A stretch of 44,697 bases of DNA from Lachnospiraceae bacterium. Its GTDB lineage: Bacteria > Bacillota > Clostridia > Lachnospirales > Lachnospiraceae. A model generated the notes under the pieces. It had not been told where the DNA came from and did no database searches. It saw only the letters and a program-made list of their open reading frames with translations. The translations under genes were made by a program, and so were the position numbers. This document shows positions 4,692-14,717 of the stretch, piece after piece (positions within the stretch are counted from its first letter, which is position 1; each line of letters begins with the position of its first letter). The DNA lies in NCBI GenBank assembly GCA_017441825.1, contig JAFRVD010000045.1:1-44697 (forward strand), read 5' to 3'.

Positions 4692-6281
4692 ATGGGTAAA
4701 CGTGTATTCATTATCGTGATGGACAGCATGGGGATCGGGGAGCTGCCGGATGCAGGTCTTTTTGGCGACGAGGGCAGCAATACCTTAGGCGCGATCCGGG
4801 ATCACGAGAATTTCTTCTGCCCGACGCTTAAAAGCCTCGGACTTTTCAACATCGAAGGAGTAGGCGGAGGCGTTCAGCACCCGCTCGGGTCATTCGCGCG
4901 CCTCGCGGAAAAAAGCATGGGGAAGGATACGACCATCGGCCACTGGGAGATAGCGGGGCTGATCTCGCCTAAGCCGCTGCCGACGTATCCTGACGGCTTC
5001 CCGGACGACGTGATCCGGGAATTTGAAGAGAGGACAGGCCGGAAAGTGCTCTGCAACAAGCCGTATTCAGGGACGGACGTGATCCGGGATTACGGCCGGG
5101 AGCATGTGGAGACCGGCGCGCTGATCGTCTATACTTCAGCGGACAGTGTGTTCCAGATCGCGGCGCACGAGGACGTAGTGCCGGTGCCGGAGCTCTACAA
5201 GATCTGCGAAACGGCAAGGGAAATGCTGCAGGGCGAGCACGGCGTGGGCCGTGTGATCGCACGCCCGTTTACAGGGGAATGGCCGTATACGAGGACTGCG
5301 AACCGCCACGATTTCTCTCTGGTTCCGCCCGGAGATACGATGCTCGACCTCCTTAATGAAGCGGGTTACGATACGCTTTCCGTCGGCAAGATCTACGATA
5401 TCTTTGCAGGGAAGAGCGTTTCCGAGATGAACCGCATCAAAAACAACCATGACGGCATGCTGAAGACGCTTGAAATGGCCGACCGGGACTTTAACGGACT
5501 CTGTTTCGTAAACCTTGTGGATTTCGACATGGTCTACGGGCACCGGAACGACGTGGCGGGGTACGCCCGCGCTATGACGGAATTCGACCGGGACCTGTCA
5601 GCGCTTCTTCCGAAGCTACGCGACGAGGACCTCCTCATCATCACCGCGGATCACGGCTGCGACCCGGCAACGCCATCGACGGACCATTCGCGGGAATACG
5701 TGCCGATGCTTCTCTACGGGAAGCACATTAAGGCCGGTACGGATCTTAAGACCCGCGGGACCTTCGCGGATATTTCCGCCACTGTGCTCGCGTATTTCGG
5801 CGTTTCCCCAGGGGATTCCGGCGGGACGGAATTCTTATCGGAGAGCGTCACGGAAGCCGGGAAACTGCCCGAATCCGCGCTTTCGGACGATGATCTTATG
5901 CAGATCGCGGAGGAGATGCGGAAACGCTCGTACGCACCGTATTCTCATTACACGGTGGGCGCCGCGCTTCTCACAACGGAAGGGAAGGTCTATACCGGCT
6001 GCAACATTGAAAACGCGGCGTTTACGCCTACAGTCTGTGCGGAGCGGACCGCTTTTTTCAAGGCGGTGAGCGAAGGGGAGCGGAATTTTGCGAAGCTCGC
6101 AATTGCCGGCGGGAGAGAAGGGGAAACTTCGGATTTCTGTTCGCCCTGCGGCGTCTGCCGCCAGGTCATGGCGGAGTTCTGCGCTCCGGATTTTATATTG
6201 GTGCTGGGGTCCGTCCGTGGACATAAAGAGTACCGGCTCTCTGAGGTGCTGCCGTTTATGTTTACCAATAAGGAATTATAA
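4692..6281 (+). CDS. Phosphopentomutase-cytidine deaminase fusion protein
   Basis: One uninterrupted 529-aa frame encodes two enzymes. Residues 1 to about 390 are phosphopentomutase DeoB, an alkaline-phosphatase-fold enzyme converting (deoxy)ribose 1-phosphate to the 5-phosphate. It shows [41 protein letters not shown] and [10 protein letters not shown], with the metal-binding Asp and His residues. Residues of about 400-529 are a complete cytidine deaminase: [24 protein letters not shown] with zinc ligand C449 and proton-shuttle E451, and PCGVCRQ with C486 and C489. A short linker of about ten residues joins them. Both activities belong to the same pyrimidine salvage route. The two enzymes are usually encoded separately, so a bifunctional product is the inference. 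Confidence 0.93.
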
Positions 6282-9238: not shown

Positions 9239-9246
9239 GATATTTC

Positions 9247-9275
9247 TTGACATCACGCCGCAACTGGTTTATGAT
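9247..9275 (+). promoter_or_regulatory. Promoter of the leader peptide-acyl-CoA ligase-iorAB operon
   Basis: TTGACA (9247-9252), exactly 17 bp, then TATGAT (9270-9275) is the strongest promoter in the window. Transcription is expected near 9282, giving a leader of about 190 nt before the first enzyme gene. Confidence 0.85.
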
Positions 9276-9305
9276 TCAGAAAATTGATCCATTTGGGAGC
9301 ACAGT

Positions 9306-9383
9306 ATGAAGCTTTCTGCAAAGGTATTCGGATACTATTATTTCAGCGGTGTGTACGCACCGCTCCTTTGCATGAACTTCTGA
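9306..9383 (+). CDS. Putative aromatic-rich leader peptide, 25 aa
   Basis: A 25-codon ORF with a good ribosome binding site (GGGAG at 9295-9299, 6 nt before the ATG) lies directly behind a consensus promoter and ahead of a strong terminator. It codes for seven aromatic residues out of 25: F8, Y10-Y11-Y12-F13 in a row, Y17 and F25, with no Trp. A hairpin of eight pairs (9345-9352 with 9357-9364) begins immediately after the YYYF codons. This layout is that of a ribosome-sensing attenuation leader. A small functional protein is the alternative, because I cannot test conservation here. Confidence 0.65.
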   Translation: MKLSAKVFGYYYFSGVYAPLLCMNF

Positions 9384-9405
9384 ATGTGTTCCTGAATATC
9401 CATAC

Positions 9406-9448
9406 ACGTAAAAAGGGAAGCATTCAGTGAATGCTTCCCTTTTTACGT
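9406..9448 (+). terminator. Attenuator-type intrinsic terminator, 20-bp perfect stem
   Basis: Positions 9406-9425 pair perfectly with 9429-9448 around a 3-nt loop. The stem has A- and T-runs on its two sides, so it could stop transcription from either direction. It lies between the leader ORF and the acyl-CoA ligase start at 9470. Its 5' arm can alternatively pair with 9382-9392, which overlaps the leader stop codon, giving a candidate antiterminator of about ten pairs. Confidence 0.85.
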
Positions 9449-9469
9449 AATACCGAAAGGAGCAACATC

Positions 9470-11107
9470 ATGCCTATTTTTGAAACGTTGGAACAGAACG
9501 CCAGGCTGTACCCGGATGAAACGGCCATCGTGGAGATCAATCCCAGCTTTGAGCCGGAGACCCGGATCACCTGGCGGGACTACGCCCTCATGCAGCCCAT
9601 CCCCGGCGAGCCGTTCAGACGGGAGATCACCTGGATGGATTTTGACTGCAGAGCGAACCGCTTTGCGAACCTCTTACTCACGCGCGGCGTGAAGAAGGGC
9701 GACAAGGTCGCGATCCTCCTCATGAACTCGATCGAATGGCTGCCCATCTATTTCGGCATCCTGAAGTCCGGCGCCGTGGCGGTGCCGCTCAACTACCGCT
9801 ATACCGCGGAGGAGATCAAGTACTGCCTTGAAAAGTCTGATTCCTCGCTTCTTGTGTTCGGTCCTGAATTTATCGGGCGTATGGAAGAGATCGTAGACAG
9901 GATCCCCTTCATCCGCCATCTGTTCTACGTGGGCGAAGAGTGCCCCACCTTTGCGGACAGTTACGACCACATGATCAAGCTCTGCACGTCCAAAAAACCG
10001 CAGATCGAGATCACTGACGAAGACGACGGCGCCATTTATTTCAGTTCCGGCACCACCGGCTTCCCGAAGGCCATCCTGCACGCGCACATGAGCCTCATGC
10101 ACGCAATGCGGGTGGAGCAGGCGCATCACCATCAGACGCACGACGATGTCTTCCTCTGCATTCCGCCATTATATCACACCGGCGCGAAGATGCACTGGTT
10201 CGGTTCTCTCATGGTCGGCGCAAAGGCAGTCCTCTTAAAGGGCACGCGGCCTGAGTGGATCATTCAGGCGGCTTCCGATGAGAAGGCATCTATCGTCTGG
10301 CTCCTGGTCCCGTGGGCACAGGATATTCTCGATAAGATCGACTCCGGTGCGATCGACCTTTCGAAGTACGACCTGTCCCGGTGGCGCCTCATGCACATCG
10401 GCGCGCAGCCGGTCCCGCCGTCACTTGTCAAGCGCTGGCTTACGGTCTTCCCGAACCACGACTACGATACGAACTACGGCCTTTCCGAGAGCATCGGCCC
10501 CGGCTGCGTGCATCTTGGCATCGGCAATAACCATAAGGTCGGCGCCATCGGCAAGGCAGGCTACGGCTGGCAGGTCATGATCGCCGATGAACACGACCAG
10601 CCTGTAGCGCGCGGCGAAGTGGGCGAGCTTTTCGTAAAGGGCCCCGGCGTCATGAAGTGCTATTACAAGGATGAAGAAGCGACCAGAGAGAGCCTGACGG
10701 ACGACCACTGGCTTCGTACCGGCGATATGGCAATGGAAGACGAGGACGGCTTCATTTACCTGGTCGACCGTAAGAAGGACGTCATCATCACCGGCGGCGA
10801 AAACCTGTACCCGGTGCAGATCGAAGACTTCCTTCGGAAGAACGACAAGATCAAGGACGTGGCCGTGATCGGCCTGCCGGATCCGCGGCTTGGCGAGATC
10901 GCCGGCGCGATCATCGAGGTCAAGGAAGGCATGACCATGACGGAAGAGGAAGTCATGAACTTCTGCCTGGATATGCCGAGATATAAGAGACCCCGGAGGA
11001 TCATCTTCGCCGACGTCCCGAGGAACCCCACAGGCAAGATTGAAAAGCCCGTGCTCCGCGCGCGTTACTGCGGCGAGTCGCTTGTCGCGCAGCAGATCGA
11101 ACTTTAA
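9470..11107 (+). CDS. AMP-forming acyl-CoA synthetase, probably aryl acid-CoA ligase
   Basis: An ANL-superfamily adenylate-forming ligase activates a carboxylic acid to the acyl-CoA. At 545 aa the domain order is complete: FSSGTTGFPKA (P-loop-like, near residue 194), YGLSE, TGD, LVDRKKDVIITGGENLYP (hinge) and NPTGKIEKP with the C-terminal catalytic lysine. The ATG at 9470 has AAAGGAG just upstream; the frame reaches back to 9431, but that start lies inside the terminator. It is followed by iorA, iorB and an aminotransferase, so an arylacetate (phenyl-, 4-hydroxyphenyl- or indoleacetate) is the inferred substrate. The sequence alone does not fix the substrate. Confidence 0.88.
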   Translation: MPIFETLEQNARLYPDETAIVEINPSFEPETRITWRDYALMQPIPGEPFRREITWMDFDCRANRFANLLLTRGVKKGDKVAILLMNSIEWLPIYFGILKSGAVAVPLNYRYTAEEIKYCLEKSDSSLLVFGPEFIGRMEEIVDRIPFIRHLFYVGEECPTFADSYDHMIKLCTSKKPQIEITDEDDGAIYFSSGTTGFPKAILHAHMSLMHAMRVEQAHHHQTHDDVFLCIPPLYHTGAKMHWFGSLMVGAKAVLLKGTRPEWIIQAASDEKASIVWLLVPWAQDILDKIDSGAIDLSKYDLSRWRLMHIGAQPVPPSLVKRWLTVFPNHDYDTNYGLSESIGPGCVHLGIGNNHKVGAIGKAGYGWQVMIADEHDQPVARGEVGELFVKGPGVMKCYYKDEEATRESLTDDHWLRTGDMAMEDEDGFIYLVDRKKDVIITGGENLYPVQIEDFLRKNDKIKDVAVIGLPDPRLGEIAGAIIEVKEGMTMTEEEVMNFCLDMPRYKRPRRIIFADVPRNPTGKIEKPVLRARYCGESLVAQQIEL

Positions 11108-11181
11108 CAGTATCACAAGGCGAAACTGCAGATCATGCCTGCATGAGTTTGCGGATAAGCCCTGAAGAAAGGCAAGAGATC

Positions 11182-12918
11182 ATGAAAAAGATAATGCTTG
11201 GCAATGAAGCGGTAGCCCGCGGCGCATACGAAGCGGGCGTCCGGTTTGTTTCCTCCTATCCGGGCACGCCCAGTACGGAGATCACGGAGAGCACCGTCCA
11301 GTACAAGGAGATCTACTGCGAGTGGGCACCCAATGAAAAGGTGGCGGCGGAAGCGGCCATCGGTGCGTCCATTGCAGGCGGCAGAGCGCTTTCGTGCTGC
11401 AAGCACGTGGGCTTAAACGTCATGGCGGACCCGGTGTTTACAGTCAGCTACACGGGCGTGAACGGCGGCCTCGTGTTCGCCGTTGCGGACGATCCCGGCA
11501 TGCACAGCTCCCAGAACGAGCAGGACTCGCGCCATTACGCCGAGGCTGCCAAGATCCTGATGCTGGAGCCTTCGGACTCACAGGAATGCAAGGAATTCAC
11601 CCGCCGCGCGTACGAGCTTTCCGAACAGTTCGATACCCCGGTGTTCTTAAGGCTTTCCACGCGTGTCTCACATTCTCAGAGCACGGTGGAGCTTCTGGAC
11701 CGCGCCGGCGATGAGATCAAGGACTACAGCAAGAATATTCCGAAGTACGTGATGATGCCGGCCATGGCCATCCGCCGCCACGTAGTGGTGGAGGAGCGCA
11801 TGAAGGCACTCCGTGAATTCGCGGAGACCACTGACTTGAATACGGTCGAGGACAACGGCGCGAAGATCGGCGTGATCACCTCCGGCATTTCCTATATGTA
11901 CGCGAAGGAAGCCCTGGGCGACCGCGTGAACTTCTTAAAGCTCGGTATGGCGTTCCCGATGCCCGAAAAGCTTATCCGCGACTTCTGTGCAAAATGCGAG
12001 CAGGTGTTCGTAGTGGAGGAGCTTGACCCGGTTATTGAGAATCACGTAAAGGCGCTCGGCATTTCCGTGTCCGGCAAGGACGTGTTCACTCTTCTTGGTG
12101 AATACACCCCGGCCATGATCCGGAAGGCAGTCTTCAATGAGGAATCCGCATCTCACTATGTACAGGAGACGGAGATCCCGAACCGTCCTCCGGTTCTTTG
12201 CCCCGGCTGCCCGCACCGCGCGACGTTCTACGTCTTAAAGAAGCTCGGCCTCACGGTTTCCGGCGATATCGGCTGCTACACGCTCGGCGCTGCAGCGCCT
12301 CTTCAGAGCGTGGATACGACCATCTGCATGGGCGCGTCGGTTAGCGCAGCGCACGGCATGACGAAGATCCGCGGTACTGAGTTCAACAAGAAGCTCGTAT
12401 CGGTTATCGGCGACTCCACGTTTATCCATTCGGGTATCACGGGCCTTATCGACATCGTCTACAACAAAGGCGCGAACACAGTGATCATCCTGGACAACTC
12501 CATCACCGGCATGACCGGCCACCAGGACAACCCGGCTACCGGTAAGACCATCTACGGTGAAGAAACGAAGGCCGTAGACCTGGTCCTTCTCGCGAAGGCA
12601 GTGGGCATCGAGCGCGTGGTTGTCTGCGATCCGTTCGACGTTAAGAAATTCGAGGAAGTTGTCCGCGAGGAGACTGCGGCAGACGAACCGTCGGTCATCA
12701 TCGCGCAGCGTCCATGCGCGCTCTTAAAGTACGTGAAGTACGAGGGACACTGCAAGGTGAATGAAGAGACGTGCAGAAAGTGCAAAATGTGCATGAGGAT
12801 CGGCTGCCCGGCCATCACATGGAAGGACGGCGCCGTGAAGATCGACTTAAGTCTCTGCAACGGCTGCGGGCTCTGCATGAATGTCTGCCCGTTCGTCGCG
12901 ATCGAAAAGGAGGCGTAA
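11182..12918 (+). CDS. iorA: Indolepyruvate:ferredoxin oxidoreductase, alpha subunit
   Basis: The large subunit of the TPP- and ferredoxin-dependent enzyme interconverts aryl pyruvates and arylacetyl-CoA plus CO2. At 578 aa it has MLGNEAVARGAYEAGV at the start and SYPGTPSTEI near residue 27. The TPP-binding half includes CPGCPHRATF, GDIGCYTLG and GDSTFIHSGI. The C terminus carries two ferredoxin-type clusters, CRKCKMCMRIGCP and CNGCGLCMNVCP. The frame opens at 11143, but the ATG at 11182 has AAAGG 9 nt upstream and matches the usual N terminus. iorB starts 2 bp after its stop. Confidence 0.95.
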   Translation: MKKIMLGNEAVARGAYEAGVRFVSSYPGTPSTEITESTVQYKEIYCEWAPNEKVAAEAAIGASIAGGRALSCCKHVGLNVMADPVFTVSYTGVNGGLVFAVADDPGMHSSQNEQDSRHYAEAAKILMLEPSDSQECKEFTRRAYELSEQFDTPVFLRLSTRVSHSQSTVELLDRAGDEIKDYSKNIPKYVMMPAMAIRRHVVVEERMKALREFAETTDLNTVEDNGAKIGVITSGISYMYAKEALGDRVNFLKLGMAFPMPEKLIRDFCAKCEQVFVVEELDPVIENHVKALGISVSGKDVFTLLGEYTPAMIRKAVFNEESASHYVQETEIPNRPPVLCPGCPHRATFYVLKKLGLTVSGDIGCYTLGAAAPLQSVDTTICMGASVSAAHGMTKIRGTEFNKKLVSVIGDSTFIHSGITGLIDIVYNKGANTVIILDNSITGMTGHQDNPATGKTIYGEETKAVDLVLLAKAVGIERVVVCDPFDVKKFEEVVREETAADEPSVIIAQRPCALLKYVKYEGHCKVNEETCRKCKMCMRIGCPAITWKDGAVKIDLSLCNGCGLCMNVCPFVAIEKEA

Positions 12919-12919
12919 T

Positions 12920-13498
12920 ATGAGCACAAAGAATATCATGATCACCGGCGTGGGCGGCCAGGGAACACTTCTTGCTGTCAGGATCCTCGCGCATATCGTG
13001 CAGGAGCAGGGCTATGACGTCAAAGTCAGCGAAGTCCACGGCATGAGCCAGCGCGGCGGGTCTGTAGTGACTTACCTCAAATACGGCGATAAAGTCTATT
13101 CCCCGATCATCGGCCTCGGAGAAGCGGACACGATCCTTTCCTTCGAAAAGCTGGAAGCGTTACGGTGCCTTCCGTACCTTAAAGAGGGCGGCGAGATCAT
13201 CGTGAACGACCAGGAGATCGACCCGATGCCGGTCATTACCGGTGCGATGGAATACCCGAAGGATATTGAAGAGACGCTCCGCGCATATGCGAAGGTCCGC
13301 CTTGTGAAGGCCGGCGAGCTCGCAGTGGAAGCCGGGAATACGAGGACCGCAAACGTGGTGCTTTTAGGCGCTATGGCAGCTGCGGGAAGCATCCCGAAGG
13401 AGACCTGGATCAGCGCGCTTAAGGACACCGTTCCCGAGCGGTTCTTAGAGGTCAACCTGAAGGCGTTCGACCTTGGCTATGCCGCGGCGGAAGCGTAA
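12920..13498 (+). CDS. iorB: Indolepyruvate:ferredoxin oxidoreductase, beta subunit
   Basis: This is the small (gamma-domain) subunit that pairs with IorA in the ketoacid oxidoreductase. At 192 aa it shows the family markers GVGGQGTLLA near residue 10, SEVHGMSQRGGSV near 41 and the N-R-TANVVLLGA region near 139. The ATG at 12920 has AAAAGGAGG at 12906-12913; the longer frame from 12881 would read back into iorA. Separate iorA and iorB genes are the usual arrangement. The neighbours indicate it acts with the ligase and aminotransferase on aromatic acids. Confidence 0.95.
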   Translation: MSTKNIMITGVGGQGTLLAVRILAHIVQEQGYDVKVSEVHGMSQRGGSVVTYLKYGDKVYSPIIGLGEADTILSFEKLEALRCLPYLKEGGEIIVNDQEIDPMPVITGAMEYPKDIEETLRAYAKVRLVKAGELAVEAGNTRTANVVLLGAMAAAGSIPKETWISALKDTVPERFLEVNLKAFDLGYAAAEA

Positions 13499-13526
13499 GG
13501 ATTCTCAGGATTTACGGGAGGAATGC

Positions 13527-14717
13527 ATGGAATACAAAATTTCTGACAAAATGGTCAATATGAAGCCGTCCGCCATCCGCGAGATCTTCAAGAGCCTGGG
13601 CACACCCGGCGCGATCTCCTTTGCGGCGGGCAATCCGGCGCCGGAATCCTTCCCGGTGAAGGACCTTGCGGCCATCAGCGCGGACATTTTTGAAAACCGT
13701 CCTGCACAGGCGCTGCAGTACAGCGTGACTGAAGGTTATCCGAGGCTTCGCGAGCAGGTGAAGGCGAGGATCAAAGAGAAGTTCGGAATCGGCGCGCCGG
13801 ACGATGAGACGATCATCGTGACAGGCGGACAGCAGGGCATCGAGCTGACCTGCAAGGTCATGTGCAACGAAGGCGACGTGGTGATCGCGGAGAATCCGAG
13901 CTTCATCGGCGCGCTGAATTCGTTCCGGTCGCTCGGCGCGAAGATCGTGGGCGTGGACGTGGAAGACGGCGGAATGAACATCGAAAAGCTGGAGCAGGCG
14001 CTTAAGGAGAATCCGAACGCGAAGCTTCTTTACGTGATCCCTACGTTCCAGAACCCGGGCGGCTTTACGACATCTCTTGAAAAGAGGAAGGCGATCTATG
14101 CGCTGGCGCAGAAGTACGACATCGTTATCCTCGAGGACAACCCCTACGGCGAGCTCCGCTTTAACGGTGAGGACATCCCGACCATTAAGAGCATGGACAC
14201 GGACGGCCGCGTCGTATACTGCGGCTCATTCTCCAAGGTCCTGTCCGCCGGCATGCGCGTAGGCTTCCTGTGCGGCAACGAAGCGATCATCCAGAAGATC
14301 GTGGTCGCGAAGCAGGTAGAGGACGTACATACGAACATCTTCTTCCAGATGCTGTGCTCGGAGTACATGGACCGCTGCGATATGGACGCGCACGTTCAGG
14401 AGATCCGCGCGCTGTACCGTGAAAAGTGCGGAAAGATGCTGGAGTGCCTGGACCGCGAAATGCCGGACTACGTAACCTATACGCGTCCCGAGGGCGGCCT
14501 CTTCCTGTGGTGCACGCTGCCGGATGAGATCGATTCCAACATTTTCGTCAAAAAGGCTGTCGAAAAGAACGTCTTTGTTGTGCCCGGCACCGCCTTTAAC
14601 TGCGACGAAACGAAGGGCAGCCAATCCTTCCGCCTGAACTATTCCATGCCTTCCATGGAAGAGATCGAAAAGGGCATCAAGATTCTTGCGGACATCATCA
14701 AGGAGCTGCACGGCTGA
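13527..14717 (+). CDS. PLP-dependent aminotransferase, class I/II (probable aromatic aminotransferase)
   Basis: A fold-type I aminotransferase of the 2-aminoadipate/aromatic/MocR-like branch, 396 aa. It has ISFAAGNPAPESFP near residue 31, YSVTEGYPRLRE, VTGGQQGIEL, PTFQNPGG, ILEDNPYGELRF with the PLP-pairing Asp, GSFSKVLSAGMRVG with the Schiff-base lysine, and a C-terminal FRLNYS arginine. The ATG at 13527 follows GGGAGGA at 13516-13522. It lies 28 bp behind iorB, which suggests that it transfers amino groups between glutamate and aryl pyruvates. Substrate specificity is inferred from this context; branched-chain or aminoadipate substrates remain possible. Confidence 0.9.
   Translation: MEYKISDKMVNMKPSAIREIFKSLGTPGAISFAAGNPAPESFPVKDLAAISADIFENRPAQALQYSVTEGYPRLREQVKARIKEKFGIGAPDDETIIVTGGQQGIELTCKVMCNEGDVVIAENPSFIGALNSFRSLGAKIVGVDVEDGGMNIEKLEQALKENPNAKLLYVIPTFQNPGGFTTSLEKRKAIYALAQKYDIVILEDNPYGELRFNGEDIPTIKSMDTDGRVVYCGSFSKVLSAGMRVGFLCGNEAIIQKIVVAKQVEDVHTNIFFQMLCSEYMDRCDMDAHVQEIRALYREKCGKMLECLDREMPDYVTYTRPEGGLFLWCTLPDEIDSNIFVKKAVEKNVFVVPGTAFNCDETKGSQSFRLNYSMPSMEEIEKGIKILADIIKELHG

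Follow-up and report, generated by a model that had tools for sequence, protein, structure and literature searches.

Indolepyruvate ferredoxin oxidoreductase (IorAB) and aryl-CoA ligases are mostly interpreted as enzymes of amino acid breakdown. In a 44,697-nucleotide stretch of DNA from a Lachnospiraceae bacterium (contig JAFRVD010000045.1, positions 1 to 44,697; the whole stretch analysed is called the window here), genes of both kinds and an aminotransferase gene follow a leader at 9247–9448, which raises the question of what signal this operon answers and in which direction its pathway runs. A sequence-only reading had proposed an attenuator with aromatic control codons. We consider it likely that the leader is a ribosome-mediated transcription attenuator that responds to charged tRNA-Tyr and tRNA-Phe and governs the ligase-iorAB-aminotransferase operon, while our confidence in the details of the switch and in the direction of the pathway is lower than in the mechanism itself.

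Results

The leader upstream of the ligase

The window locus (L001, in genome G000) holds all of the elements claimed for it, namely a promoter, a leader ORF with its ribosome binding site, a YYYF codon run, a hairpin and a terminator, each at the position given for it (Table 1). The promoter (TTGACA 9247–9252, TATGAT 9270–9275, spacer 17) agrees with the consensus in 11 of 12 letters, and shuffles lead one to expect 0.3 comparable sites by chance in the 701 nt scanned. The GGGAG of the ribosome binding site lies six nt upstream of the leader ATG, and the hairpin behind the presumed control codons (arms 9345–9352 and 9357–9364) comprises seven Watson–Crick pairs and one G-U. Among 5000 base shuffles of the leader ORF, 5 reached its five aromatics within six residues and 51 its total of seven. 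The terminator arms (9406–9425 and 9429–9448) form a perfect 20 bp stem with a 3-nt loop; because the T5 tract sits within the stem, the hairpin is absent from the list of a consensus terminator scanner, but two other scans found it.

Table 1. Features of the window locus, leaders of congeneric loci and the PaaK-type locus of the same genome.
Feature	Position	Strand	Basis or remark
Sigma-70-type promoter TTGACA-17-TATGAT	9247..9275	+	Sequence scan
Region 1	9291..9303	+	Pairs with 9385–9397; contains leader RBS GGGAG 9295–9299
Leader ORF MKLSAKVFGYYYFSGVYAPLLCMNF	9306..9383	+	Stop TGA 9381–9383; similar leaders in L002–L005
Presumed control codons TAC TAT TAT TTC (Y10–F13)	9333..9344	+	Sequence; putative role
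Hairpin directly 3′ of control codons, possible pause hairpin	9345..9364	+	Folding; putative role
Region 2	9382..9397	+	9385–9397 pairs with region 1; 9382–9392 can pair with region 3
Intrinsic terminator hairpin, between leader ORF and ligase	9406..9448	+	Region 3 = 9416–9425
AMP-binding acyl/aryl-CoA ligase	9470..11107	+	PF00501, PF13193; SD AAAGGAG 9456–9462; putative substrate
iorA, indolepyruvate ferredoxin oxidoreductase alpha	11143..12918	+	TIGR03336 738 bits, above cut-off
iorB, beta subunit	12881..13498	+	NF005325 273 bits, above cut-off; PF01558; ORF overlaps iorA
Class I/II aminotransferase	13473..14717	+	PF00155; actual start probably 3′ of this first TTG
L002 leader MKRTGLYFTYFDGVGFRFSGCGRNTR			
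L003 leader LKKRTGLYAAYGHGVSFRFSGRGEYVR			TTG start
L004 leader MKRTGLYAAYFLYVSFRFSGR			
L005 leader VLIRTGNLYFGFTYGYYFSRSLCCA			GTG start
PaaK-type ligase locus	L295:8641–10173 (G000:C39:48641–50173)		Aromatic leader and terminator

The folded leader reaches –75.4 kcal/mol, a value that none of 200 shuffles equalled (z –9.6) and to which the perfect terminator contributes much. A plain terminator, ending the upstream permease transcript or acting constitutively, with a leader ORF present by chance, would account for this share of the folding energy and would suit the position of the hairpin 167 nt after the permease stop, but the promoter lies between the two. At the end of the ORF, GAATGTGTTCC (9382–9392) can, as had been claimed, pair with GGAAGCATTC (9416–9425); the pairing consists of 5 + 4 bp flanking a small internal loop and excludes the terminator. 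Folding adds a pairing that the sequence-only reading had overlooked, of 13 bp between 9291–9303 and 9385–9397, whose strength was equalled in 7 of 1000 shuffles; region 2 can thus pair either with region 1 or with the 5′ arm of the terminator.

The expectation that no T-box precedes this ligase was borne out: with 17 candidates scored, RF00230 gave no hit in G000 at E ≤ 0.001, and a regular expression for the T-box bulge motif (AGGTGG) found nothing upstream of the gene. Rfam leader families did not match the leader at the gathering score or at E ≤ 1, where only eukaryotic miRNA and snoRNA names appeared, far under their cut-offs. Despite the Tyr T-boxes that occupy the same place in relatives, these searches make a degenerate T-box or another tRNA-binding leader extremely improbable.

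Leader peptides and T-boxes in the genus

Fifteen genomes of the genus were compared, G000 itself being a 2.6 Mb assembly that is 81.6% complete. The counts refer to 12 congeneric ligase loci with an intact 5′ end; the ligase of G010 (L013), whose contig begins inside the gene, the distant matches in G001 and G014 and the cut-off matches in G160 and G020 were left out. A Tyr/Phe-rich leader ORF with a hairpin precedes ligase-iorAB in five loci (L001–L005), four (L006, L007, L009, L012) have instead a T-box whose specifier is UAC (Tyr), and three (L008, L010, L011) have neither. No leader-bearing locus matched RF00230 and none of the four T-box loci has a leader. The four T-boxes were found at E ≤ 0.001, under the Rfam gathering score (64–91 of 93 bits), with GAATAC at the specifier place. 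At that same threshold G000 has no T-box match anywhere, whereas 14 of the 15 genomes have at least one.

All five leaders contain five to seven aromatic residues, so that the aromatic codons do not vary freely beside a retained terminator; what is conserved is this aromatic richness, while the positions of the residues vary and the YYYF run itself is not kept. By letters, L002–L004 alone are plainly homologous, L001 and L005 aligning poorly with the rest, and a search of the 14 congeners with the DNA of 9240–9470 turned up no convincing counterpart of the leader (the best E outside G000 was 0.0138). A pairing of a segment near the stop with the 5′ arm of the terminator nevertheless recurs in all five, as GAAUG with CAUUC in L001–L004 and as GAAUGGA with UCCAUUU in L005. 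The leader stop overlaps GAAUG in L001, L003 and L005 and precedes it, start to start, by 5 nt in L002 and 17 nt in L004. Shuffles of region 2 gave a pairing with region 3 as good in 23 (L001), 5 (L002), 92 (L003), 4 (L004) and 27 (L005) of 1000 cases; single leaders are therefore suggestive and the set of five is stronger.

Folding with ribosomes in place

Leaders were folded with a ribosome footprint masked from 15 nt behind to 12 nt ahead of the A-site, the RNA being stopped before the 3′ arm of the terminator, and the probability of the 2:3 pairing was read out from an equilibrium model that ignores co-transcriptional kinetics. For L001 this probability is 0.00 in the free RNA, 0.00 with a ribosome at the stop and 0.00–0.05 with a single ribosome at Y10–F13, at odds with the earlier proposal that a lone ribosome stalled at YYYF frees the antiterminator. 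The antiterminator stays bound because 9291–9303 holds 9385–9397. If the mask is extended from the stalled ribosome back to the start site, the value rises to 0.72–0.83. The additional stretch covered for Y10–F13 measures 27–36 nt, about one ribosome, so that codons 10–13 would lie one ribosome length from the start codon. On this model the attenuation scheme first put forward is incomplete, a second ribosome at the start being needed.

The other leaders differ in their behaviour. With one ribosome, L005 moves from 0.24 (free) and 0.00 (at the stop) to 0.82–0.93 at Y9–Y14, L002 from 0.64 and 0.05 to 0.90–0.92 at Y7–F11, and L003 from 0.02 and 0.00 to 0.24 at Y8 and 0.02 at Y11. L004, whose stop precedes region 2 by 17 nt, stays at 0.84–0.85 in every state and thus shows no switch. 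The predicted block of the antiterminator by a ribosome at the stop therefore holds in four of the five leaders and fails in L004 (0.85). A weak or unswitched 2:3 pairing in L002, L003 and L004, together with a leader from another genus that has no clear antiterminator (L336, below), would suit a model in which leader translation acts through Rho access, mRNA decay or polarity and no 2:3 antiterminator exists. The conservation of GAAUG:CAUUC in four of five leaders and the clean switching of L005, L298 and L305 in the folding speak against that model, which we regard as very unlikely.

A second aromatic leader, upstream of a PaaK-type ligase

A scan that covered 1,316,879 of the 2,597,701 bases of G000 and looked for a short ORF with a ribosome binding site, a T-run hairpin and a downstream gene returned 110 + 26 rows, some repeated. 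By aromatic density the L001 leader comes first among these 136 rows, which was to be expected of a leader chosen beforehand. The second rank falls to MKSLNCSAKMYWFIFYFTMRHRDG (MYWFIFYF), which has its own promoter (TTGACA-17-TATACT) and stands ahead of a PaaK-type ligase (TIGR02155 518 bits, under the cut-off of 646). In the folding model this leader behaves like a textbook attenuator, with 2:3 probabilities of 0.04 free, 0.00 at the stop and 0.84–0.85 with one ribosome at Y11–F13; shuffles were as good in 115 of 1000 cases for the 2:3 pairing and in 8 of 1000 for the 1:2 pairing. Rfam gave it one match (E 0.088), to an sRNA on the opposite strand and far under its cut-off, and no leader family. 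Another row of the scan, MYYEYWKKVK, was rejected as the end of a longer protein.

The PaaK leader of G010 keeps the YWFIFYF core (AKMYWFIFYFTMRHR) and changes frame afterwards, and among 397 family genomes 2 contain the 15-mer GTTGATTTGCGATGC, each time within this leader. Phe-run leaders precede PaaK in G067 and G180. By locus, leaders on PaaK stand at L305 and, in other genera, at L335 (MKHRTANFFFFFSFSFTGEDGKVSLLC) and L336 (MNKTHSFAFSFSFFFSFTDDDGRVDLRC); the folding gives a weak switch for L335 and no clear one for L336. The other PaaK loci read, 14 of 16 in the genus and 26 of 28 in the family, yielded no accepted leader, and the candidates L337 and L348 were rejected as their U-tracts belong to upstream terminators. 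A second such leader in the same genome, the aromatic leaders at five of 12 congeneric loci and 1:2 and 2:3 pairings that beat most shuffles render a plain terminator with a chance ORF unlikely, even with the unswitched L004 counted in its favour.

Wider survey of ligase loci

Relatives of the ligase were found in 139 of 397 family genomes and 83 of 391 class genomes (29 new loci read), to which 80 loci of named genomes were added. From 61 genomes matched in another search, 28 new loci were read. The total of 255 ligase loci read includes 8 pairs identical over 150 nt upstream. A T-box core expression matched 30 of the 255 (28 distinct), L117 being counted here although its match is unlike a T-box core and probably false; GAA-UAC precedes GAG in 24 of these 30 (22 of the 28 distinct). 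The Rfam alignment of L023 places UAC at the specifier position. At the gathering score Rfam reported a T-box in L023 alone of 20 sources, missing the congeneric T-boxes that appear at E ≤ 0.001. Tyr T-boxes with a UAC specifier stand before this ligase in other Clostridia as well.

A mechanical test for an ORF plus terminator, applied to 146 loci, flagged ten: L001, L003, L004, L005, L024, L034, L043, L078, L109 and L123. The last six, with TTG or GTG starts, were set aside by eye, and L002, whose terminator has T3 only, was not flagged. In the 80-locus set, where no terminator was required, 17 loci apart from L158 and L159 showed aromatic ORFs. Among ligase loci, leader attenuators were accepted by judgement in L001–L005 only. 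Two other upstream regions deserve mention: L168 has a long aromatic-rich ORF and a T-run hairpin without a clear ribosome binding site and could be another leader, and in L164 a promoter-like sequence and a strong terminator-like hairpin precede the ligase with no evident leader ORF or T-box.

L001–L004 form a clade (SH-aLRT 98) in a rapidly built tree of 111 ligases; this clade lies within a larger one containing Tyr T-box loci, and the L005 ligase falls in a different clade with no Tyr T-box loci nearby. The leader thus tracks the genus more than the ligase lineage, suggesting that it was exchanged or transferred repeatedly.

Downstream genes and the direction of the pathway

The ligase of L001 reaches no NCBIfam cut-off, and we therefore infer its substrate from the neighbouring genes. 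The aminotransferase is followed by a DGOK-type kinase and then by a KDPG-aldolase-type ORF. Elsewhere in the window, 4692–6281 is a single ORF whose translation, judged by eye, is phosphopentomutase-like in its first part and cytidine deaminase-like in its last.

Since T-boxes and leader peptides both respond to uncharged tRNA, expression of the operon is to be expected on starvation, and such control argues for a pathway running in the biosynthetic direction. The ligase would convert an aryl acid to aryl-CoA, IorAB would carboxylate this reductively to the aryl pyruvate, and the aminotransferase would yield the amino acid; expression when tyrosine or phenylalanine is short would fit such a route. 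There is precedent in the literature as far as the available parts of two papers go: PMC7356843 cites Allison 1965 for phenylalanine from phenylacetic acid in rumen anaerobes, and on aryl acids in M. maripaludis PMC4162585 refers to Porat et al. Prephenate dehydratase and dehydrogenase (PF00800, PF02153) had no match in G000, an absence that may reflect the incompleteness of the 81.6% complete assembly. A dependence of G000 on the carboxylation route for lack of these enzymes is a weak proposition; both are present in its near relative G010 and in the leader-bearing G007, G009 and G012.

The opposite direction would follow if the leader encoded a TnaC-type arrest peptide, with a free aromatic amino acid stalling the ribosome at the leader end and inducing the operon for catabolism. 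IorAB and the ligase are able to run oxidatively, and both readings share a switch that requires leader translation. However, the five leaders all end differently (MNF, NTR, YVR, SGR, CCA), unlike an arrest motif; with a ribosome at the stop, region 2 is covered, which favours the terminator; and orthologous loci have Tyr T-boxes, which respond to uncharged tRNA. We judge an arrest peptide that induces such a pathway, from aryl pyruvate through aryl-CoA to the acid and ATP, quite unlikely.

Discussion

The proposal of a Tyr/Phe leader attenuator ahead of an aromatic acid operon is supported by this analysis, with a switch that would work as follows. With tyrosine and phenylalanine in ample supply, a ribosome at the leader stop would cover region 2, the hairpin at 9406–9448 would form and transcription would end; if the leader were untranslated, region 1 would hold region 2 and termination would ensue too. 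For the opposite outcome we infer a ribosome stalled at codons 10–13 for want of charged tRNA and a following ribosome on the start region that covers region 1, which would leave region 2 free to pair with 9416–9425 and let transcription continue into the ligase gene.

With the chances slightly against the proposal as a whole, we suggest further that within one uncultured Lachnospiraceae genus leader-peptide attenuators have replaced the Tyr T-box of an operon for aryl-acid carboxylation, at least twice by the ligase tree (the clades of L001–L004 and of L005); that PaaK, a second aryl-acid ligase gene of the same genome, has an aromatic leader of its own; that aryl-acid salvage may thus be biosynthesis under charged-tRNA control; and that a queued ribosome at the start site may be part of the switch.

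The class of mechanism is known. The pheL, trpL and hisL attenuators of gamma-proteobacteria, familiar from the background given in the available part of PMC9413887, likewise combine leader control codons, alternative pairings near the stop and an intrinsic terminator, but L001 differs in its host, a Lachnospiraceae bacterium, in its target, ligase-iorAB, and in a region 1 that is the leader ribosome binding site and not the control-codon stretch. Within the Firmicutes, the accessible parts of two papers describe His leader peptides for hisS*/hisZ of bacilli (PMC2965389) and for his operons of the B. cereus group, Peptostreptococcaceae and Erysipelotrichales (PMC9413887). Like L001, these are sequence-predicted leaders of genes that are under T-box control in other members; unlike them, L001 concerns Tyr/Phe, with both kinds of control at one operon within one genus. 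The Leu-rich ilv-leu attenuator of Staphylococcus aureus (PMC5794164, seen in part) also joins a leader peptide to a terminator in a Firmicute and has bench support in S. aureus, but it serves branched-chain amino acids and another target. In the portion of PMC8632094 at hand, uORFC-13-1 before aroF in Acholeplasma resembles L001 in its Phe codons, its terminator and an aromatic pathway gene, and differs in lineage and gene and as a possible Phe uORF without a Tyr run. The closest counterpart is the Tyr T-box (UAC) itself, which serves the same operon and the same signal in four congeners and other Clostridia, but senses the tRNA directly without a leader peptide and is absent at L001. Our literature search, which had most subscription journals outside its reach, found no report of such control for iorAB or PaaK, and the available parts of the T-box survey PMC2494555 and of PMC3766115 make no mention of indolepyruvate. 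The target, the lineage and the exchange with a T-box therefore look new.

If the proposed attenuation is correct, the logic of its control would reveal the direction of a widespread anaerobic pathway, which these Clostridia would turn on when tyrosine or phenylalanine is short. The occurrence of a T-box and a leader peptide at one operon within a genus would, moreover, make it possible to study between close relatives how one charged-tRNA sensor gives way to another.
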